DNA from: a virus
Virus record (IMG/VR): IMGVR_UViG_3300027848_000081
Span: 1 to 27,010 of that record
DNA length: 27,010 nt
Direction: 5' to 3' (one strand)
Shown piece after piece: positions 605 to 17,134 of this stretch. The notes below the pieces were generated by a model, which had not been told where the DNA came from, made no database searches, and saw nothing but the letters and a program-made list of their open reading frames with translations. The stretch's first letter is position 1. Each line of letters begins with the position of its first letter. The translations under genes and the position numbers were made by a program.

Positions 605-2158
605 ATGTATAACACAGAAATTTATAAGAATAGGAAATTGAATGAGCAGACTGCTGTTATTTCTAAGGACTATGATGAGCGACTTAAGGGATATCTAGAT
701 AATGAAGATTTCTTAGAAGTATTAAGTGATGCGTTTAAAGGCTTAGAAGACGGGGATAAAACTACAACAACTGAGCTTGCAATTGATGGTAAGGAATTTG
801 GAATATTATCAGACGATGTTATTTATATAGAAGTAGATAAAAAGGACGAGAACGCTCCTAAATTTACACTATATGTCGTAAACGATGAATATGTATTTGA
901 CGGAGTTAATATGGCAGTCGCAGCAAATTTATTTAAACAATCTACGAAAGGAGATATTGGAGTAGTCGGAACAGGTTTAAATTATCTAGGATCACTAGTT
1001 GGACTAGGAGATCCAGGAGATGATGGAACCGATGAGACAATGTTGATTGGAGTAGCTGCTGCACTTGGTGCAATTGCTGCAGAAAAGAGATTAGATCCAA
1101 AGGTATATTTTGATGCACTTGCTGGTAAAGTAGGAAACATCTCTGGAATGTTAGAAACTGAATTCTCAGGTAGAGCAGAAGCAACATCGCTGAATTTATT
1201 TAGACGACCAATATCAGATTCATGGACTAGAGGAATTAGCCTAGGTTCAATACTTGGAGATATAGCATTAACAGTAGGAACATTAGGAATGGGAACAGTT
1301 GCTAATGCTACATTGAAAGGAGCAGCAGCAGCTGCTAAATTAGGATCTAAAGCTTCTAAAATTGCTAAATCAACGAAGGTTGGAAGAGGAGTAATTAAAG
1401 TAGGAGATAAAGCATTAACTGGAGTAAAGGGAGTAGTATCAAGAATTCCAGGATGGAAGAAACTTGCAGGATCAACTAAGATAACACATCTTGGGCAACA
1501 TGTAAAGGTTGGATCAACGATAACGCTAAAGGGTTCTAAATATCCAGCTAAGATTCTTAAGACGAGTCCAACTAAAGGAGTATTTATGAAAAGTACAGAA
1601 GGACCAGGTAAAAATCTACCAGGATTCTGGACATCAACTGATGATTTCTTAGTACAAGTAGATCCGGGATTAGCAAATAAAATATTAAATAGCGCAGGAG
1701 TAGGATCAACTGCAGCAGCGGTTGCATTAGCTACTAAAAAAGCAGGAGATTTAGGGGATGCACCTTCAATGAATGTTGCAGAGATCATTGGATGGTATGA
1801 TTCAACAACAGCTGATCCATCGGATTACATAGCAGGAGTAGAGGAAGCAGATATTGAAACACTAGCAACTATGTTAGTAGATCTTAAAGCAGGAACTGGA
1901 TTTTTTGGTAATACAACAGATACTGAAGAATTACAAATCGCATTAATTATTACTTCACTTTCTCCAGAAGGAGCAAAAGAGATAGATGAAGAATATAAAA
2001 AATTAGATCCAGGAAATACTGTATATGCATTGCTAGACGATGAGCTTGGAGGAGACATGGGAGATATGGCTAAAACATGGTGGGCAGCAATTACTGGTGA
2101 TGGAATTGATAATCATCCAGAAATAGCTAAGTATAAAGAAGCAATTAGCAAAATGTAA
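605..2158 (+). CDS. Large virion-type protein with two annexin-like segments and a hydrophobic/basic centre
   Basis: This is a 517-residue protein. I chose the ATG at 605: an in-frame ATG at 554 would overlap the previous gene by 35 bases and adds a poor, basic leader. Residues 139-200 carry a GTDE motif followed later by an EFSGR segment. Residues 417-497 read TDTEEL, then SLSPEGAKEI, then EEYKKL, then DELGGD. Both resemble the order of elements in an annexin repeat (G-T-D-E ... R/S-S ... Y ... L-x-x-E-L-S-G). Between them lie a Gly/Ala-rich hydrophobic stretch (about 211-245), a Lys-rich part (245-290) and a beta-rich SH3-like part (about 295-352). There is no signal peptide. The annexin comparison is from memory of the family pattern, so function (membrane association or translocation during infection) is inference. 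It converges on the 638-residue minus-strand gene. Confidence 0.8.
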   Translation: MYNTEIYKNRKLNEQTAVISKDYDERLKGYLDNEDFLEVLSDAFKGLEDGDKTTTTELAIDGKEFGILSDDVIYIEVDKKDENAPKFTLYVVNDEYVFDGVNMAVAANLFKQSTKGDIGVVGTGLNYLGSLVGLGDPGDDGTDETMLIGVAAALGAIAAEKRLDPKVYFDALAGKVGNISGMLETEFSGRAEATSLNLFRRPISDSWTRGISLGSILGDIALTVGTLGMGTVANATLKGAAAAAKLGSKASKIAKSTKVGRGVIKVGDKALTGVKGVVSRIPGWKKLAGSTKITHLGQHVKVGSTITLKGSKYPAKILKTSPTKGVFMKSTEGPGKNLPGFWTSTDDFLVQVDPGLANKILNSAGVGSTAAAVALATKKAGDLGDAPSMNVAEIIGWYDSTTADPSDYIAGVEEADIETLATMLVDLKAGTGFFGNTTDTEELQIALIITSLSPEGAKEIDEEYKKLDPGNTVYALLDDELGGDMGDMAKTWWAAITGDGIDNHPEIAKYKEAISKM

Positions 2159-2221: not shown

Positions 2222-4138
2222 TTAGAGTTTAAATTTACGAATATGTCTATATGAATTACTTTCGTAAGTTTTTTCAACCTTTGTTTTATTTTTCTTAGGC
2301 GTAATGTCGCTTTCAATTTTATCAATCTCAGCTTGTTTATCGTCATATGCAAAATTCCAAAAATCTTGAACGTCTTGTGGAATATCATCTTTGTGTCTGT
2401 TTTGTGCATATGCTACCATTCCGATATCAACTAGGTTAATTAGTTCTGCATTCTTTTGTAATCCTCCGTGAAGAACCTCAGTTGCCGAACTATCATTTAT
2501 TGTATCTAATATTGGAACAACATATGCTGCCTTTGGATTCTCAGCTAATTCTCTATTAATTCTATCCTGCATGGATTGGTTAATAGATACTGCTCCAAGA
2601 TTCTCTAATTCTCCATCTGTCATTCCAGATACATCAAATCCCATTATTAATTTAGCAACCTGTTTTCCTATGAAGAGTGTTAGGTTTCTTGAGAATTTAA
2701 ATGCGGTACGACCGACCTTCGCTGCTCCTTTTGCGTATGAAACTGTTTTACCATAATTACGCTCAATGTGCTTTAAATTATCAGCAAGTTCTCTATAAAA
2801 ATTAAGAACATTTCCTTCAGTACGTTTTGCATACTTTTTACCTATTTCACTTGCTAATTCTGGACCATATCTCTTTTGAAGGAAGTTTACAGATTTTAAT
2901 ACTGATCCGTCTAATTGTTTTAAGATAGCTCCTTGTGAATCCTTAATTATTAACTTATTTCCACTTGCAGTAATCATTGTTCCTTGTCTACTAGCAGCTG
3001 CTTCAAAAAATTCATCAATTTGTTTAACATGACCTTGTTTTATAATCTGAGGAACGTCATCTGCAAACTTAGCAGATTTACTAGAGAATGTCCCGAACAT
3101 CTCTGCAATCGATGCAAAGAATTTCTTCAATGGTTTACCTAAGAAAGGTACCCATCCTACAACTGTTCCTAAAAACTTGTTAAAGAATGTGTCCATCATT
3201 TGTCCAACTAATGGTATTGATTTCTTAGATGCCTTTGCTACGTATTCTAATGCTTTTTCTCCTTCCGGTCCTGCTTTAGCAAGTAGTTCTAATGCTTCAT
3301 CAGATACTTTAGCGCTTCCGGTCTTAACTCCCTGTTCAATTGTAGTTTTACCTCCTTTAGTTACAACCTTTTCAGCTTGCATATACTCAGTGGTTACCTT
3401 AACAATTGATTTTCCAGCTTTACTTACCTGGAACATTCCTTTCATAATATTTCCGGCGAATGGTATAGCTGCTGCTGCGAATGATATAAGAGCGAGAGCC
3501 CATTTTCCAGAGTCTCCATTGATCGCTCTGATCATATAAATAACTCCATTTAAAACATCGAATATTGCTCCTGCGTTTCCAAATAAATCTCCTACTAATC
3601 CAAGAATATCTAAGATGAAATGTATAATTCCTATCATTGATCCTCCTTCAGTTAAGGCACTAAGTAGTCCCTTTAGCATTCCAAGAATTCCACCACTTCC
3701 AGTATCTCCAGTTCCAACACCATCTGTTGTACTTTCAATATTAGTCATTACGTTATTCCAGTCTTCATCTCCCATTGCAGCAGATGCTACATTAGGATCA
3801 GTCGTAATTGCCTGTTCATTCACCCTAGGTGATTTAAGTTTTGAGATTGTAGACTTAATACGCTCTTCAATTTGAACAATCTGGTCATCTGAGATGATCC
3901 CTGTTGCTTTTTCTAAAAGGATATTCTTACCATTAATTAAAGCTCTATGATATTCATCAACTTTCTTAAATCCTTCTTCTAGTAATTGTTTAATTTCTAA
4001 TTGAATAAGGATATCTCCTGGAATTAATGAATCCGCTCTCTGTAATATAGTTGATTCATAAATCAACGAATCTGCATAAGAAGGATTAGATATTCCAAAC
4101 GATTGGATATTATCTACATACGGAATTATGTGGCGCAT
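2222..4138 (-). CDS. Large protein with a polymorphic-toxin-like hydrophobic (pretoxin/translocation-type) segment
   Basis: This is a 638-residue protein starting at the ATG 4138-4136, 20 nt after a late-promoter element. Residues 45-110 are helical and charged and 140-165 are Gly-rich. Residues 172-247 form a long hydrophobic segment containing DVLNGVIYMIRAINGD and then SFAAAAIPFAGN, followed by a Lys-rich VSKAGKSIVK. This resembles the hydrophobic segment that precedes toxin domains in RHS and other polymorphic toxins (pattern LNGxIYxxRGD ... AAxxIPFAG). A second hydrophobic/amphipathic stretch (about 306-350) has WVPFLGKPLKKFF. The C-terminal half is helical and basic, ending in a Lys-rich tail. 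I see no known toxin catalytic domain. Possible roles are an ejected internal virion protein, a membrane-active penetration protein, or an effector; none is proven. Confidence 0.8.
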   Translation of the reverse strand: MRHIIPYVDNIQSFGISNPSYADSLIYESTILQRADSLIPGDILIQLEIKQLLEEGFKKVDEYHRALINGKNILLEKATGIISDDQIVQIEERIKSTISKLKSPRVNEQAITTDPNVASAAMGDEDWNNVMTNIESTTDGVGTGDTGSGGILGMLKGLLSALTEGGSMIGIIHFILDILGLVGDLFGNAGAIFDVLNGVIYMIRAINGDSGKWALALISFAAAAIPFAGNIMKGMFQVSKAGKSIVKVTTEYMQAEKVVTKGGKTTIEQGVKTGSAKVSDEALELLAKAGPEGEKALEYVAKASKKSIPLVGQMMDTFFNKFLGTVVGWVPFLGKPLKKFFASIAEMFGTFSSKSAKFADDVPQIIKQGHVKQIDEFFEAAASRQGTMITASGNKLIIKDSQGAILKQLDGSVLKSVNFLQKRYGPELASEIGKKYAKRTEGNVLNFYRELADNLKHIERNYGKTVSYAKGAAKVGRTAFKFSRNLTLFIGKQVAKLIMGFDVSGMTDGELENLGAVSINQSMQDRINRELAENPKAAYVVPILDTINDSSATEVLHGGLQKNAELINLVDIGMVAYAQNRHKDDIPQDVQDFWNFAYDDKQAEIDKIESDITPKKNKTKVEKTYESNSYRHIRKFKL

Positions 4139-4150
4139 GAGCTATAGTTA

Positions 4151-4166
4151 TTTTTATTATTTATTC
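4151..4166 (-). promoter_or_regulatory. T4-type late promoter for the 638-residue protein
   Basis: Read on the minus strand, GAATAAATAATAAAAA. The AATAAATA core ends at 4158, 20 nt before the start codon, like the other late elements in this window. It lies between the terminator of the preceding unit and the ATG. Confidence 0.7.
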
Positions 4167-4178
4167 AACTATATAGAC

Positions 4179-4202
4179 AAAAAAGGCCCTCAATTGAGGG
4201 CC
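4179..4202 (-). terminator. Intrinsic terminator of the glucosyltransferase operon
   Basis: On the minus strand there is a perfect 7-bp stem, GGCCCTC / GAGGGCC, with an AATT loop (4185-4202), followed by TTTTTT (4184-4179). It lies 26 bases after the stop of the glucosyltransferase gene and just before the next late promoter. Confidence 0.9.
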
Positions 4203-4227
4203 TTCCTTGAATTATATAAGTAGTAGC

Positions 4228-5238
4228 TTACATGTTGAATATTCTTCGTAATTCGGCTCTTTGTCGATTAATTAGATCTGGAGAATATGCAGCGATTAAT
4301 CTCTTAACGTCTTCTTGATTCTCTACATATAATAAATCTCTAAGAAATGGATCTTGAATTAGAGTTTTTTCCGGATCATATTCGATTTGAATAGCAGCGA
4401 GACAGTTAGATGCTAATGTTTCATAGAATCTATATGTCGTAACATTATTAAGATGTTCTTCGTCACCTGTGATAAATGATACTTTTACTTTATCCAATTG
4501 AACCATTAAATCTTCATGCTTTAATTTCTTCATGAAATCTCCAGGAACCTTATCTGATTTATATCCAATCTTAAGGTTTTTAGTATCTGCAGGAAAATAC
4601 TTTCGTAATTGATTTTCTCTAAATGATCCGCGTTTATCTCCGAAATAAACTAAGTCGTATTCTTTTTCAAGAGTTTCATCAGCTGGAGCAAATACGTCAA
4701 ATTGATCAGAATTTGTAAATCGTTCCTTAAAAATGTAAGTGAACCAATCTACTTGTTGCCAATAATCAGGCTGATATCCTAGGAATTGCTTGATATTTTT
4801 TCCGGCAAATAGATAAGTTGCTTCCTTTAAGATTCTTTCCCATGGTTCAACTGAATCATTACATAAATCAAATCTCTCAGAAATGGTTTTTGCATAATTC
4901 ATTGGCGGGATACGTGGATCATTAATAAGGAAATAAATCTTTCCTTTAAACTTTGCAAGGTTATTACAAATAGTTTCACAATGTTCTCCCATAACTCCTC
5001 CGAAGAAATTAGGTGTAGATAATTGAACAATAACTGCTCCGTATTCTGAGAAATCATTATCCGTATAATTATGATAGAAATCTAAATCTTTCATGTTTCG
5101 ATTTTTATATCCAACACAATCAACTTGAGCTCCTTTTTCTTCCATCATCTTCTTAAAGAACATTGCCTCTAATCCTCTATGATTTAAATCATTATACGTT
5201 AAATTTGCGAATACTGATGTTAGTGCTATTTTTTTCAT
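4228..5238 (-). CDS. bgt: DNA beta-glucosyltransferase-like enzyme (T4 BGT family)
   Basis: The protein has 336 residues; T4 BGT has 351. Similarity to T4 BGT is visible along the whole chain. FFGG at 78-81 and IYFLINDPRIPP at 101-112 match T4 NFFGG and IYYLFTDIRLPF, so Asp107 sits at T4 catalytic Asp100. FGDKRGSFREN at 199-209 matches the Arg191/Arg195 nucleotide-binding segment. TGDE and then TYRFYETLASN (268-278) match T4 TLRVWETMASD, placing Arg270 and Glu273 at T4 Arg269 and Glu272. The family moves glucose from UDP-glucose to 5-hydroxymethylcytosine in phage DNA, protecting it from host nucleases. The start overlaps the stop of the upstream gene by four bases (ATGA), so the two are translationally coupled. 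The exact base acceptor (hmC, hmU or another) cannot be told from the sequence. Confidence 0.85.
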   Translation of the reverse strand: MKKIALTSVFANLTYNDLNHRGLEAMFFKKMMEEKGAQVDCVGYKNRNMKDLDFYHNYTDNDFSEYGAVIVQLSTPNFFGGVMGEHCETICNNLAKFKGKIYFLINDPRIPPMNYAKTISERFDLCNDSVEPWERILKEATYLFAGKNIKQFLGYQPDYWQQVDWFTYIFKERFTNSDQFDVFAPADETLEKEYDLVYFGDKRGSFRENQLRKYFPADTKNLKIGYKSDKVPGDFMKKLKHEDLMVQLDKVKVSFITGDEEHLNNVTTYRFYETLASNCLAAIQIEYDPEKTLIQDPFLRDLLYVENQEDVKRLIAAYSPDLINRQRAELRRIFNM

Positions 5239-5513
5239 TTTTTCTCGTTTTCGTAGTTTTCTAGTCCTTGAATATATGCAACCGCATCTAATAGATTATC
5301 TTTCTTGTGATTATAGGACTCACGAGAGAACTTCAAAGCTATTAATGCTTTGAACATATCACCTCCAGTAACCTGATGTCCTGTCATGCCATTAAATATC
5401 ATAGCGGCACGTTCCATACCCTCTGAGAATGGTCCGTAGTTTCTATCTGCTTCTTCTGAGCGATTATTTACTATATCGTTTGCTTCTTCTAATATTGATT
5501 GTTCTTTTGCCAT
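5235..5513 (-). CDS. DUF6378-like small phage protein
   Basis: This is a 92-residue, all-helical, soluble protein. An N-terminal ILEEANDIVNNR, a central YGPFSEGMERAAMIF and a C-terminal KALIALKFSRESYNHKKDNLLDA follow the pattern I know from the DUF6378 phage family (A-x-x-I-V ... YG ... F-x-R-x-A ... K-x-x-R ... H-K-D-N-x-x-D-x-x-x-Y). The KDNLLD segment resembles the acidic metal site of MazG-type nucleotide pyrophosphohydrolases, but this similarity is weak and the function is unknown. It is the first gene of an operon with the DNA glucosyltransferase, whose start overlaps its stop by four bases. A role in nucleotide or DNA modification is guilt by association only. No late-promoter element precedes it. 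Confidence 0.65.
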   Translation of the reverse strand: MAKEQSILEEANDIVNNRSEEADRNYGPFSEGMERAAMIFNGMTGHQVTGGDMFKALIALKFSRESYNHKKDNLLDAVAYIQGLENYENEKK

Positions 5514-5560
5514 ATTGTATTATTTTATACTACAAATTATACTTCCGTTTCATGGGACAT
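5514..5560 (-). promoter_or_regulatory. Probable non-late promoter region of the DUF6378-bgt operon
   Basis: This 47-base leader between a terminator and the ATG lacks the AATAAATA late element. On the minus strand it contains TATAATTTG and, closer to the gene, TATAAAATAATAC. Either could be a -10/-7-type box; the first is one base longer than the Bacteroidota TAnnTTTG pattern. No clear -35 or -33 box is visible. Confidence 0.35.
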
Positions 5561-5585
5561 AAAAAAAGCGGATAATTTTATCCGC
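5561..5585 (-). terminator. Intrinsic terminator after the 616-residue gene
   Basis: On the minus strand GCGGATA / TATCCGC forms a 7-bp stem with a four-base loop (5585-5568), followed by seven T (5567-5561). It lies 26 bases downstream of the stop at 5612. Confidence 0.9.
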
Positions 5586-5611
5586 TTTAGTATTATTTAG
5601 TAATGTTTTAA

Positions 5612-7462
5612 TTATGAGCGTAATTTACCATATTTAGCCATTAGCACTGAAGTATCAACTGACTCGTTTACTTTACCTTTTTCCTCTTTATCGTCGTCAT
5701 CGTCCTTTTTAGAATCTTTTACTTTATCCTTTTTAGAATCTTTAGCATCTTCGTCTTTTTCATCTTTGTCTTTCTTTCCAGCTTTCTTAGCATTTTTCTT
5801 ATCGTGATATGCTTTAAGTCCAGCTGGCATTTCTCCTTCGTTTACTTTAGCCTTTGGAGATTTAATCTCAGCTTTAGATAAATCAACGTTAATGTAATCT
5901 TCTTTCAATCTAGAAATAGATTCTTGAATATTAGTTTTAAGTTTTTCTAATTCTACGATTTGAGATTTATCTACGTCTTTAGAATTAATAGTTTCATTTA
6001 ATTTCTTAACTGATCCTTCTAATTTAGCAACGTTTTCTAATATCCCGGCCTTAGCGGCTTCAACTCTTCTTTTAGCTTCAATTGACTCATCAATTTTAGA
6101 TTTGAAAATTGGGCTAATGTCATATTGAAAATTTTCATTAAAGAAATCAAACATTTGATGTTCATCAACTTTACTCCAAACTCTTTCAGCTGAATTAGGT
6201 TTATTACAAACTACATAGTTTCCAGATAATTCAAAAACTGTAGCTTCTGAGATCAATCTATCATTAGTGATATTCTTAATGAATTCAAAAGTAACGATGC
6301 TATTGATATTCTCAAATACATAATTTACTCTGTTTCTAACATCTGGAGTTTCCATAACTAATGCTTCAGATAAATTAATAGAACCTAATCCATCAACTTT
6401 ATTATCATTTAAATAAATATCTAATCCATTAGATTCATTAGTATTTAATCCAAGTTTAAAGTTTCTGATAGAATTACTTTCTACTCCTTCTCTTGAAGAT
6501 GAAGGTTTAAATCCTAATGTAGCAAATGCTTCAGCTAGGCTATAAAATTCTGGGAATTTAGCTTGAACGAATTCCGGATTCATTGTAGCAATTGTGAAGT
6601 TTTCATTGATGTGAACTTCAGTTTCATTTCCAGTTAACTTAGTTGATTCTGAGATTTTAATAAATCTACCATCAGCATATGTTAAGATACCATTCTTAAG
6701 TTTCTTTGCCGGAGCAATTAAGTTTTGAATTTTAGTATCTGATGTTCCAGCTCCTAATGTGAATGATCCATCCTTTGATGATTCCATAATTCTTAGGTTA
6801 TTAACCAATTGAGTTACAAGTGGAAGATTTGATTCTCCATGCATTAAGTTAATAATGTCTGCGCTGTATTTGTTATCAACTAATGATTGCTTCAATGTAG
6901 CAGAAATAGACTCATATAATCTAGTAACTCCCTTTGAGTTATCCATCATATGAATTGTATTTAATACTTCTAAATCATTTGCTCTATTTTCAAGAACATT
7001 AACTACTTGATCAACTGCAGACTTAACTGATTTCTCATGGATATGCTGTGTGAATTCACTGATAAAAGAAGGATATAATTGGAATTCAGCGTTTCCAGTA
7101 TTAAGTGCATTCTGGTAATTATCTACCTTAGACTTAATAATTGGATTTGAATAGGCATTCGATTCTCTAATTAGAGAAAGCTTACCATTTAAATTAGCAA
7201 CCTTACTCATTTCATTTAGAATTGAATTAGGAGTACTTTCTTGTTTTTTAAATTGAGACAATAATGCGTTTAGCTTATCACTTTTAAGGTGCTCATTAAT
7301 TCCGATTAAGGAATTTTTAAGTTCCACGTATATATTATCATATGTGTTATTACTAGCGATCGACTTGTTAGTTGATTCTATGACTAGTCTCACTAAAGAG
7401 TTCTCATTCAATTTAGAGTCGCTCTTTAATTCGATTATTACGTTATTTACAAAATCCTTCAT
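5612..7462 (-). CDS. Large virion-type protein with coiled coil and Lys/Asp-rich tail
   Basis: This is a 616-residue protein of no family I recognise. The N-terminal two thirds are mixed helical and beta, rich in Asn and Ser, with no membrane segment. A predicted coiled coil covers about residues 455-535 (many Glu/Lys with heptad Leu/Ile/Val). It is followed by a MPAGLKAYHDKKNAKKA segment and a strongly charged tract (about 560-600) made almost only of Lys, Asp and Glu, then a short ordered end. The gene is a single unit with its own late promoter and terminator, so it is probably needed in large amounts or with its own timing. A start at 7462 is supported by AGGA five bases upstream. A capsid-internal or scaffold-like role is possible from the charged tail, but this is inference. 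Confidence 0.75.
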   Translation of the reverse strand: MKDFVNNVIIELKSDSKLNENSLVRLVIESTNKSIASNNTYDNIYVELKNSLIGINEHLKSDKLNALLSQFKKQESTPNSILNEMSKVANLNGKLSLIRESNAYSNPIIKSKVDNYQNALNTGNAEFQLYPSFISEFTQHIHEKSVKSAVDQVVNVLENRANDLEVLNTIHMMDNSKGVTRLYESISATLKQSLVDNKYSADIINLMHGESNLPLVTQLVNNLRIMESSKDGSFTLGAGTSDTKIQNLIAPAKKLKNGILTYADGRFIKISESTKLTGNETEVHINENFTIATMNPEFVQAKFPEFYSLAEAFATLGFKPSSSREGVESNSIRNFKLGLNTNESNGLDIYLNDNKVDGLGSINLSEALVMETPDVRNRVNYVFENINSIVTFEFIKNITNDRLISEATVFELSGNYVVCNKPNSAERVWSKVDEHQMFDFFNENFQYDISPIFKSKIDESIEAKRRVEAAKAGILENVAKLEGSVKKLNETINSKDVDKSQIVELEKLKTNIQESISRLKEDYINVDLSKAEIKSPKAKVNEGEMPAGLKAYHDKKNAKKAGKKDKDEKDEDAKDSKKDKVKDSKKDDDDDKEEKGKVNESVDTSVLMAKYGKLRS

Positions 7463-10316: not shown

Positions 10317-10556
10317 TTATGAATTTACTATTTCATTAAGAACCTCCTGTGTGATCTTAGATCCAGTGTCTTCTTCTAATTTATTTATTAGAGATATCTC
10401 AGACTCTCGTAAATTATATAGTTCCGATGAAATTATATTCTTAGCGTCAACTAACTTTAACATTTCATTCTCTAATTTACTAATTTCAATATGTATCTCA
10501 GCATATCTATTAACGATTGCTTTAAGTTCGATTTTATCTTCTTGTTTAATATTCAT
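10317..10556 (-). CDS. Small coiled-coil protein
   Basis: This is a 79-residue protein, almost wholly helical and charged. Residues 5-65 have hydrophobic residues in a heptad-like pattern (VNRYAEIHIEISKLENEMLK and following). It starts with ATG overlapping the stop of the upstream gene by one base (TAATG), so translation is coupled, and it ends two bases before the membrane-anchored gene. It has no cysteine, signal or membrane helix. The function is unknown; an oligomerising accessory or assembly factor is a reasonable guess from size and position. Confidence 0.7.
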   Translation of the reverse strand: MNIKQEDKIELKAIVNRYAEIHIEISKLENEMLKLVDAKNIISSELYNLRESEISLINKLEEDTGSKITQEVLNEIVNS

Positions 10557-12061
10557 TAATCTACGATTTTAACTTCTAACGGACTAGATAATAGATTTTC
10601 TATTTTTCTAAGTCTTGCTTCTACTCCTGACATATCAGTCATTGAATATCCTGCACTATTATTCTCTGATTTATTACCCTCGTTGTTTGTAACATTTGAA
10701 GAATTATCAGTTGTTGTTTTATTATCCGATCCAGCAGTTTCAGATTTAACTTCAGTTAGAGTAACGTCACTACCCTCTGGAGAAGCAGGCTTAGCTACTT
10801 CAGCAGGAGGTGGAGTATTAATTGGTGCAATCCTTTTATCTATTCCTATCTTTTCTTTCAATACCTCAGTCTCGCTCATTACTTCGTCGATTACTGAATT
10901 TTCATTATCTCCTATCGCCTGAGAGCTATCTTCATTTAATTCATTAATTATACTGTTTGATTCCTCTACATCACTCTCCGATTCAGGATTATTGCTCTTA
11001 GTTAAGAATGCTAGTTCATTTGCTGTGTATGCATCCATATCATCACTAAATTCTCCACTATTTGATGACGACGACGAAACTGAACTTGTATTATTAATAA
11101 AATCAGACGTGGAATCTGAACTTGTATTATTAATAACATCAGGCGTGGAATCTGAACTTGTATTATTAATAACATCAGACGTGGAATCTGAACTTGTATT
11201 ATTAATAACATCAGACGTGGAATCTTCTTTCTTATCTAAATATGATCTATCATTACTAGAAGCATCATTTATTGAATTATCAATATTTGATATATTACTA
11301 GCTTCAGTTACTAATTCATATCCTGATTTACTCATCAACTCAGCACGTGATTCCTCACTTAATTTAGCAGGCTCCATTATGTTTCCTAGCGAAGTATTTT
11401 GAAGTTGATCAATTAGTGTCAATTCTCCTTCTAATCCAGGAGTATTCTCGGTAACTTCTCCCTCTAATATTTCATCCCTTTCAGTAGTTTCTCCATTAAG
11501 TGGATTTTCACCATCTATTGCCTCATCTACTATATCCTCGTCATTCAACGTATTAACAGCTTCATCAGATTCACTACTATTTAGTTCTTTGAATGCCAAT
11601 TGAACAATGTTATTATCAGCATCAAGTCCATCAATTTCTGCATTGATTAATATGTCACTATATGCTTCTGTAAAATCGTCAGATTCTGAATTTAGTAAAT
11701 CTGTGATACTTAAACCGGATCCTGCTATTCCAGAAATAACCGCGCTATATCTAGCATTAAGCTCTTCACTTGGATCAATTGATTTTAGTTTCTCATTTTG
11801 TTCAAGTTTACGTAAAGTACTTGCACCCTTTTTTAATCTATTATATAGATCTGGATTCCGGTTCATTGCTAATACTTCAACGTCATTCTGTTGACTATTA
11901 GTTTTACCATTATCATTGAATAACAATTTAAATGGTGATCCATTATCTAGTGCATTTAACTCATCAATAGGATACGGATGTTCTTCCGCATACTTGATAT
12001 TCTCTTGTATTCGATTATCACGTTTCTTATTGTAGTTTTCTATGTAATTTGCAACACTCAA
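10556..12061 (-). CDS. Acidic, mostly disordered protein with a four-copy 12-residue repeat
   Basis: The frame gives 501 residues from a TTG start at 12061. No ATG occurs in frame until well into the protein, and a late promoter ends 18 nt upstream, which supports TTG. The sequence is dominated by Ser, Asn, Asp, Glu and Thr with few aromatic residues, so most of it is likely disordered. Around residues 280-328 there are four copies of a 12-residue unit of the form DSTSDVINNTSS. Only the N-terminal about 120 residues and the last 30 (a short coiled coil, GVEARLRKIENLL) look ordered. The function is unknown. It is the first gene of a four-gene late unit. Length may vary between relatives by repeat gain or loss. 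Confidence 0.75.
   Translation of the reverse strand: MSVANYIENYNKKRDNRIQENIKYAEEHPYPIDELNALDNGSPFKLLFNDNGKTNSQQNDVEVLAMNRNPDLYNRLKKGASTLRKLEQNEKLKSIDPSEELNARYSAVISGIAGSGLSITDLLNSESDDFTEAYSDILINAEIDGLDADNNIVQLAFKELNSSESDEAVNTLNDEDIVDEAIDGENPLNGETTERDEILEGEVTENTPGLEGELTLIDQLQNTSLGNIMEPAKLSEESRAELMSKSGYELVTEASNISNIDNSINDASSNDRSYLDKKEDSTSDVINNTSSDSTSDVINNTSSDSTPDVINNTSSDSTSDFINNTSSVSSSSSNSGEFSDDMDAYTANELAFLTKSNNPESESDVEESNSIINELNEDSSQAIGDNENSVIDEVMSETEVLKEKIGIDKRIAPINTPPPAEVAKPASPEGSDVTLTEVKSETAGSDNKTTTDNSSNVTNNEGNKSENNSAGYSMTDMSGVEARLRKIENLLSSPLEVKIVD
11079..11222 (-). repeat. Four in-frame 36-bp tandem repeats
   Basis: Four head-to-tail 36-base units (11079-11114, 11115-11150, 11151-11186, 11187-11222) differ by only a few bases each. 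Each encodes 12 residues, so changes in copy number keep the frame. There are no spacers, so this is not CRISPR. The repeats sit in the disordered part of the acidic protein. Confidence 0.95.
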
Positions 12062-16025: not shown

Positions 16026-16499
16026 TTATAATATACTTTGCACTCCTAATATGATGCCGATCGCGGTAATTGCACTTAATGTTGCCATATATCCGATATC
16101 GTATTTAAATTTACGAGGTTTATAATTTTTATAATCAAATTGGATTAATACTACGTATCCGTAGAACTCATCAGTTGATACTCTTTCATAATCTGCCGTT
16201 ATAACATCTAGAATTCCTTCATTTTGTAAAAAGTCAGTGTATTTTCTCATTGCATCAGATACGAATCTTAATTCAACTGATTCTTTAGAGTCCTCAGTAT
16301 ACATTAATAATTCAGGGTTTAGGTTCACTCCAATGAATAACGTGCTACCTTCCTTTTTGATTCCAAGACGTTCAAGTTTTCCTTCGTTTTCTAAATCATT
16401 TAGGATATTAGTATATTTAGAAAAGTATGCTCGATCCTTTAATGCAAGCATGAGTGACTTGTACACTCGTTTCGGGTAAATGTAATCTTTAGTTTTCAT
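16026..16499 (-). CDS. Tail-anchored small membrane protein of the sigma operon
   Basis: This is a 157-residue protein. A soluble mixed alpha/beta domain (1-130) is followed by one C-terminal hydrophobic helix (about 137-156, MATLSAITAIGIILGVQSIL), which suggests tail anchoring in the inner membrane. The start overlaps the stop of the sigma-factor gene by four bases (ATGA), so it is translated with it. Genes coupled to ECF-type sigma factors are often membrane anti-sigma factors, but those usually have a cytoplasmic N-terminal anti-sigma fold, which I cannot confirm here. Function unknown. Confidence 0.7.
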   Translation of the reverse strand: MKTKDYIYPKRVYKSLMLALKDRAYFSKYTNILNDLENEGKLERLGIKKEGSTLFIGVNLNPELLMYTEDSKESVELRFVSDAMRKYTDFLQNEGILDVITADYERVSTDEFYGYVVLIQFDYKNYKPRKFKYDIGYMATLSAITAIGIILGVQSIL

Positions 16500-17134
16500 A
16501 TGTCAAAAATGTGATTTAATGTTTCCTTAAATTCTGGATTTTTTTCTAAAACTCTAGATTTAATATCAGTTCTTATTTTTCTGAGTTTAGTTTTTACTGT
16601 ATTCTCGTTGATGGAATACGTGTCAGCAATAGACTTTACTTTGTGCTTTTTAATCATTTTATCAACTGCAATATTTCTAAGAAGCGTATCTTCAATTCCA
16701 TGTATCTCTGAAACAGTTAGATTGTACATTGAATTGAAATCACTTTCAAAATCTTCGAAATCATCAACCTCTGAATATCCACCAACATCAGTATTATCAG
16801 TGATTCCATCAAATGAACCAAACGAATTTCGTTTTTTCATGTGTAGATAATAAAGGGTCTCATTCCTAGCAATTGTGTAAATCCACGTTGTAAATCTTCC
16901 CTTCTCAAAATCAAATTTAGCAACGTTATTAAAAATCTTTTTTAGAGTCCATTGTAACGCCTCATCTGTGTCGTCATTATCCATGCAAAATTTCCATATA
17001 TGATAGCGTAACTTAGGGTATATCAAGGATGCAAGCTCGTTTCGTTCACGTTCGGTTATCGAGTTATCTCCAAATTTTACTGCTATTTTCTGAATTCTTT
17101 CATTAATAATCTTGTTCGTTAGTTCAAATCCCAT
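16496..17134 (-). CDS. Sigma-70-family (ECF-like) RNA polymerase sigma factor
   Basis: This is a 212-residue protein. Residues 33-102 read as sigma region 2: YPKLRYHIWKFC, a DEALQWTLKKIF segment, then FDFEKGRFTTWIYTIARNETLYYLHMKKR, with the typical F-x-x-W-I-x-x-I-A-R-N motif. Residues 148-196 form region 4 with a helix-turn-helix (KSIADTYSINENTVKTKLRK). An acidic linker (110-135) lies between them. It should bind host core polymerase and direct it to phage promoters. T4 gp55, the late sigma, lacks a normal region 4 and needs gp33 and the clamp; this protein has both regions. It overlaps its neighbours on both sides (16 and four bases). The late-type promoters of the window are its most likely targets (inference). 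Confidence 0.85.
   Translation of the reverse strand: MGFELTNKIINERIQKIAVKFGDNSITERERNELASLIYPKLRYHIWKFCMDNDDTDEALQWTLKKIFNNVAKFDFEKGRFTTWIYTIARNETLYYLHMKKRNSFGSFDGITDNTDVGGYSEVDDFEDFESDFNSMYNLTVSEIHGIEDTLLRNIAVDKMIKKHKVKSIADTYSINENTVKTKLRKIRTDIKSRVLEKNPEFKETLNHIFDI

Follow-up and report, generated by a model that had tools for sequence, protein, structure and literature searches.

The 517-aa protein encoded in the phage DNA studied here very probably carries an annexin-like unit at its C-terminal end, as judged from sequence profiles and a predicted fold. New here are an apparent T4-like capsid-targeting/prohead-protease site at the start of this protein (KLNE/Q, the slash marking the putative cut), and the presence of a packaging-type site on annexin-repeat proteins of three unrelated viral-contig groups as well.

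The DNA comprises positions 1-27,010 of IMG/VR record IMGVR_UViG_3300027848_000081 and is called the window below. Its source is a T4-type tailed phage, and its genes include those for the terminase large subunit, a gp6-like baseplate wedge protein and a T4-type beta-glucosyltransferase, together with tail-fibre-like genes. Among the nearest annotated relatives of the terminase, with identities of about 30%, are those of Sphingomonas phage PAU, Flavobacterium phage MaF61 and Tenacibaculum phage PTm1; by this weak relationship, the host is probably a member of the Bacteroidota. By reading, the 212-aa product of 16496-17134 (-) is a candidate sigma-70-family factor, whose position and role may resemble those of T4 gp55. 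The 501-aa protein encoded at 10556-12061 (-) contains an in-frame repeat of SDVINNTSSDSTS and very few positive charges.

The gene of the 517-aa protein is an intact frame at 605-2158 (+). We placed its start at 605 and not at the in-frame ATG at 554, because its relatives begin at the corresponding MYNxExYK. These relatives, with 72% and 71% identity over the full length, were found on two IMG/VR contigs, L002 and L003, which come from related T4-type phages; the family as used here consists of the three sequences from the window, L002 and L003. No relatives were found in 50,697 phage records or in the GTDB genomes, no family was assigned to the full-length protein by Pfam or PHROGs scans, and a PDB sequence search with either the protein or the segment gave no match. 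A match to Salmonella phage SSBI34 (E 0.2) was rejected as too weak. The gene order is kept in both relatives: a 332-aa gene, then the 517-aa gene, then a facing gene of 637/639 aa. In the window the first of these is represented by its 3′ part (1-588, +); it runs in the same direction, and its start, MGNTFKSWNDVSE/S, looks propeptide-like too. The relatives also have an adenylosuccinate synthetase-like gene (L003: 13184-14323, -) between a DUF6378 gene and a vWA-like gene; it is missing from the corresponding place in the window, and MaF61 has one annotated.

When the segment 426-501 alone was searched against the whole Pfam library, its sole match was Annexin (PF00191), with 13.4 bits (E 0.086), which stays below the gathering cut-off of 25 bits. 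The eukaryotic profile A2, made from 15 annexin repeats in PDB structures, ranked the 517-aa protein first among the frames of the window (E 0.0015, 11.2 bits; next frame 0.43). The extended annexin HMM, which adds bacterial and viral repeats from other genomes to A2 and was trained with the window family left out, gave it 19.9 bits (E = 2.6e-6 in the window set; next 0.23), and the L002 and L003 relatives scored 18.2 and 18.4 bits. When the whole protein was shuffled 3000 times the best score was 9.2 bits, and when the C-terminal part was shuffled 5000 times it was 11.4 bits. The score of segment 417-497 with this HMM, 18-20 bits, is beyond chance. Profile-profile comparison of the segment with annexin gave 86% probability with 54 columns in register. 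Against a prokaryotic profile from one sequence, hhalign gave 35% probability only, yet none of the 400 control tiles did as well. Alignment with 17 annexin repeats showed the helix A-E pattern in the segment, with a longer A-B loop. Another annexin match, in L004 (G002 at 110 kb, E 0.0175), was taken as chance, since it lies in an 87-residue frame without gene support.

With the three-sequence alignment, AlphaFold2 modelled the whole 517-aa protein poorly (mean pLDDT 41.7). Residues 412-500 (1838-2104, +) were predicted as five helices in order (417-428, 441-450, 454-467, 473-481 and 483-497), with a pLDDT of about 50-83 and preceded by a short helix (406-413). All of the 50 structural matches listed by VIA-align 2 were annexins or annexin fusions, matched as single whole repeats with Z of 9.0-11.0, where a Z of up to 13 is possible by chance for helical bundles. 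The matches covered about 75-98 residues (mostly 76-80), with rmsd mostly about 2-3 Å and identities of 10-23%. Foldseek against PDB placed annexins among its top rows, none with E under 0.3, and Foldseek against BFVD gave nothing usable for the 517-aa protein. Since sequence and predicted fold agree, an annexin-like unit in residues 412-500 is likely. The A-B loop, residues 429-440 (AGTGFFGNTTDT; 1889-1924, +), is longer and rebuilt at the place of the canonical GxGTD calcium motif. This motif is lost from the segment, which has GTGFFGNTTDTEE there, and classical calcium binding is therefore unlikely. An aromatic pair (FF or FW) is kept in the loop and, judging from the sequence, could stand in as a membrane contact.

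At the other end of the protein, residues 1-14 (MYNTEIYKNRKLNE; 605-646, +) make up a candidate capsid-targeting propeptide with a T4-type prohead-protease site at E14/Q15. The N-terminus reads MYNTEIYKNRKLNE/QTAVIS, and the cleavage-type site is KLNEQ, KLNEQ and KINEQ in the three sequences, with LNE at residues 12-14 of the 517-aa protein. The prohead protease of T4, gp21, cleaves behind L/I-X-E, and those T4 internal proteins that are to be ejected have at their N-terminus a short capsid-targeting peptide with a gp21-type site at its end (PMC9026906). The L/I-X-E ending of T4-type ejection propeptides was thus found in the 517-aa protein, and as LNE/INE in its relatives. In the 128-kb related contig, [LIV][NSAD]E[QASGNT] lies within residues 6-30 of 15 of the 169 proteins, where shuffles expect 4.8 ± 2.1 and none of the 2000 shuffles reached 15; the motif is short, and this significance is overstated, because its exact form was picked after the sequences had been viewed, and the T4 rule is independent of that choice. 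The strict form, [LIV]NE[QASG], occurs 8 times within the first 30 residues of the proteins of this contig and 0 times within the next 30. Many sites are preceded by an aromatic pair, as in FKEFSKLNE/Q, FKGFMSSKAINE/Q, FNKWDILNE/A and, in the upstream neighbour, FKSWNDVSE/S. From this motif, its conservation, its enrichment at N-termini and its occurrence on unrelated phage annexin proteins, packaging of the 517-aa protein in the phage head appears likely.

A search for a gp21-like prohead protease in the fragments of 27, 33 and 128 kb, run without a positive control, gave no match, and no MaF61-like capsid protein was found in the contigs. Many proteins of L063-L069 (contig IMGVR_UViG_3300026097_000012) share an N-terminal 'aromatic-x-x-aromatic ... 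[LI]NE/[QAG]' and make up a candidate set of head-packaged proteins for this phage group, with a NUDIX-like 155-aa protein among them. The window also encodes, at 5612-7462 (-), a 616-aa protein with a tail rich in lysine and aspartate and several NE[GSN] sites, including KVNEG at 540 and KVNES at 598. It matched no family and has, from its sequence, something of the look of a T4 gp22-like scaffold that is cut into pieces.

The function that we propose, and to which we give an even chance, is that of a head cargo (ejection) protein ending in one divergent annexin-fold domain and acting at the host inner membrane. Its first step, the folding of residues 412-500 as one annexin repeat, is fairly secure given the profile and the predicted fold. 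The protein would then be made late, residues 1-14 would draw the precursor into the prohead core, and a gp21-type prohead protease would cut after E14. Next, the protein would be ejected with the DNA, as follows from T4 biology provided that targeting and cleavage hold. Finally, in the least secure step, the annexin-like domain may bind or enter the inner membrane from within, and so help DNA entry or alter the membrane for takeover. The middle of the protein would perhaps contribute to this step. It contains a hydrophobic stretch of transmembrane length at residues 211-233 (1235-1303, +), with the best 19-residue window at 211-229 (mean hydropathy 1.5), followed by a basic centre at residues 241-320 (1325-1564, +) with a net charge of +17, namely +9 in residues 241-280 and +8 in 281-320. 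The rest of the protein is mostly acidic. This bears out the first-pass annotation, made from the sequence, which had described a hydrophobic, then basic centre.

A possible but less probable reading accepts the annexin-like domain as real but gives it no part to play at the membrane: it would be a module for binding other proteins or for packing, in a protein that is either packaged in the head or structural. An ejected protein of this kind could serve host takeover or anti-restriction, as T4 IPI does by protecting glucosylated DNA. Alt and IPI, two of the internal proteins of T4, both have host enzymes as their targets (PMC9026906). The loss of the GxGTD motif from the C-terminal segment and the acidic, not basic, surroundings of the domain are in line with such a role. 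So is the T4-type beta-glucosyltransferase gene at 4228-5238 (-), 2 kb from the 517-aa gene (PF09198, 34.4 bits, above the cut-off), which suggests that the phage DNA contains glucosylated modified cytosine. However, the hydrophobic stretch at 211-233 and the aromatics kept in the A-B loop fit membrane contact, and the bacterial annexins described so far have links with delivery systems.

The first-pass annotation had proposed two annexin-like segments, and the residues that it quoted were found at the numbers given. If both were true units of one split annexin core, the protein would form a membrane platform with its two units placed about a transmembrane hairpin; we regard this as doubtful, and as slightly less probable than a packing module. 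The first segment, residues 139-200 (GTDE ... ETEFSG; 1019-1204, +), gave a weak signal. Its GTDE and ETEFSG are kept in all three sequences, about 2 in 5000 shuffles score higher than it does with the annexin HMM, and its hhalign P of 0.001-0.0016 is better than the 0.0024 of the best of 400 control tiles. At the calcium motif it has DDGTDE, with GTD present and the first G absent. But the HMM score is only 7.4 bits, and more than 200 residues separate the two segments. Folded alone, the region gave a model of low confidence (pLDDT 43) with helices at 144-160 and 165-186 that lack the A-E pattern; the structural list for this model held no annexin, its best match being to unrelated chains (Z 4.0). 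The proposal of two segments is therefore retained for 417-497, on profile and fold, and reduced to a weak sequence signal without a confident model for 139-200. The fold test named in the annotation, comparison with annexin bundles, likewise came out in favour of the second segment and, at pLDDT 43, was uninformative for the first.

It is improbable that the similarity arose by convergence or accident, with an ordinary bundle of five helices happening to match in register: identity in the structural alignments is low (10-23%), the calcium motif is lost, the Pfam score is sub-threshold and the family is small (three sequences), but sequence and fold give the same boundaries and register, the score climbs from 11.2 to 19.9 bits once prokaryotic repeats are included, and shuffles stay far below the score of the second segment.

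The 517-aa gene converges with a 638-aa gene (2222-4138, -), to which it is linked in both relatives and whose product has hydrophobic segments at residues 168-203 and 214-232. Between them lies a bidirectional intrinsic-terminator-like hairpin at 2176-2201, with an 11-bp stem and T-runs in both directions, so that the two genes do have a terminator in common, as had been noted earlier. Convergent genes with one terminator are frequent in phages and give little information on function. No toxin domain was found in the 638-aa protein by Pfam and PHROGs scans, and it has no detectable homology with the 517-aa protein. Its match to Sinorhizobium phage Phosso (E 0.7) was discarded as too weak. At residues 106-109 it has VNEQ (3812-3823, -), a second candidate prohead-protease site, in which NEQA is invariant in three sequences. 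The putative NEQ site on both proteins is compatible with both being head cargo. We infer that the two may be partners at the host membrane.

Annexin-like repeats had also been called rare in viruses. A 2014 survey (Kodavali et al.) indeed found no annexins in viruses (PMC3894181), but seven other IMG/VR contigs (L008-L014), of putative phages, carry annexin repeats that exceed Pfam's cut-off, with clear matches in most of the proteins. No T4-type terminase was found in the sequences of these contigs, and no Pfam-level annexins were found in a set of seven large phages whose terminases are similar, among them PAU, PTm1 and MaF61. An [LV]NE/[NAQ] site lies within the first 35 residues of the annexin proteins from L011, L013 and the mutually related L009 and L014. 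Among the 9 and 10 ORFs of L009 and L014, respectively, the site is carried by the annexin protein alone, against 0.10 and 0.15 per locus expected from shuffles. L008 encodes at 4264-6078 (+) a row of small proteins that begin with a hydrophobic anchor and end with an annexin repeat. The protein encoded in L011 at 2922-5555 (+), and found also in L012, has 878 aa and contains two annexin repeats (PF00191, 45.6 bits) in addition to a peptidoglycan-binding domain (PF01471).

We tentatively suggest that annexin-fold proteins fitted with a cleavable capsid-targeting peptide are packed into the heads of several large phages, unrelated to one another, and are then injected. If true, this would be a phage counterpart of the annexin modules in phage-tail-derived injection particles, and annexin domains would be a general module for cargo that meets its target membrane from inside a contractile machine. 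The existence of a phage annexin, and its link to a packaging-type signal at the N-terminus in four groups that are unrelated, would put annexin domains among the injected phage proteins. It would also suggest concretely what some of the many uncharacterised ejection proteins of large phages are, and connect with the annexin modules found in eCIS cargo. In eukaryotes, annexins have a central role in organising membranes, and their origin has been traced to bacteria.

Compared with the eukaryotic annexin repeat (PF00191), the 517-aa protein has the same five-helix order, with one complete repeat in register, and, following helix D, a conserved acidic position (DDELGGD, where annexins have SELSGD). 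However, eukaryotic annexins have a core of four tandem repeats and the GxGTD motif, whereas the 517-aa protein has one clear unit, with GTGFFGNTTDTEE at that place and 13.4 bits against a cut-off of 25. Because it differs in score, calcium motif and repeat number, we do not file it under PF00191. With the proteins of L008-L014 it shares an annexin repeat in a viral-contig protein and, in L009/L014, L011 and L013, the N-terminal [LV]NE site, but outside the repeat they are not homologous to it; the L011 protein has its extra peptidoglycan-binding domain, and those of L008 have N-terminal hydrophobic membrane anchors instead of the site. T4 Alt, IPI-III and the ejection proteins of phiKZ/SPN3US begin, as the 517-aa protein appears to do, with a short propeptide ending in a prohead-protease-type site, and in both cases there are several such genes per genome. 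These proteins have no sequence similarity to the 517-aa protein, whose packaging and cleavage are predicted. Annexin repeats in bacteria adjoin the eCIS core domain of phage-tail-like injection particles (PMC8213781), a role in delivery across membranes has been proposed for them (PMC3482391), and their calcium motif is partly substituted in many cases (PMC3894181). Among the bacterial annexin-repeat proteins that we collected, two also hold the eCIS core domain, in agreement with the earlier reports. The whole 517-aa protein gave no match to this domain (PF13699) up to E = 10, and none to a toxin domain. While bacterial annexins are often tied to phage-tail-like injection particles, the 517-aa protein belongs to a lytic-type T4-like phage and has a head-packaging-like propeptide. 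Like it, the bacterial annexins, some of them fused to PF13699, have single or few divergent repeats within larger proteins (PMC3894181). The 517-aa protein would work like the bacterial annexins and is probably a remote relative of them.
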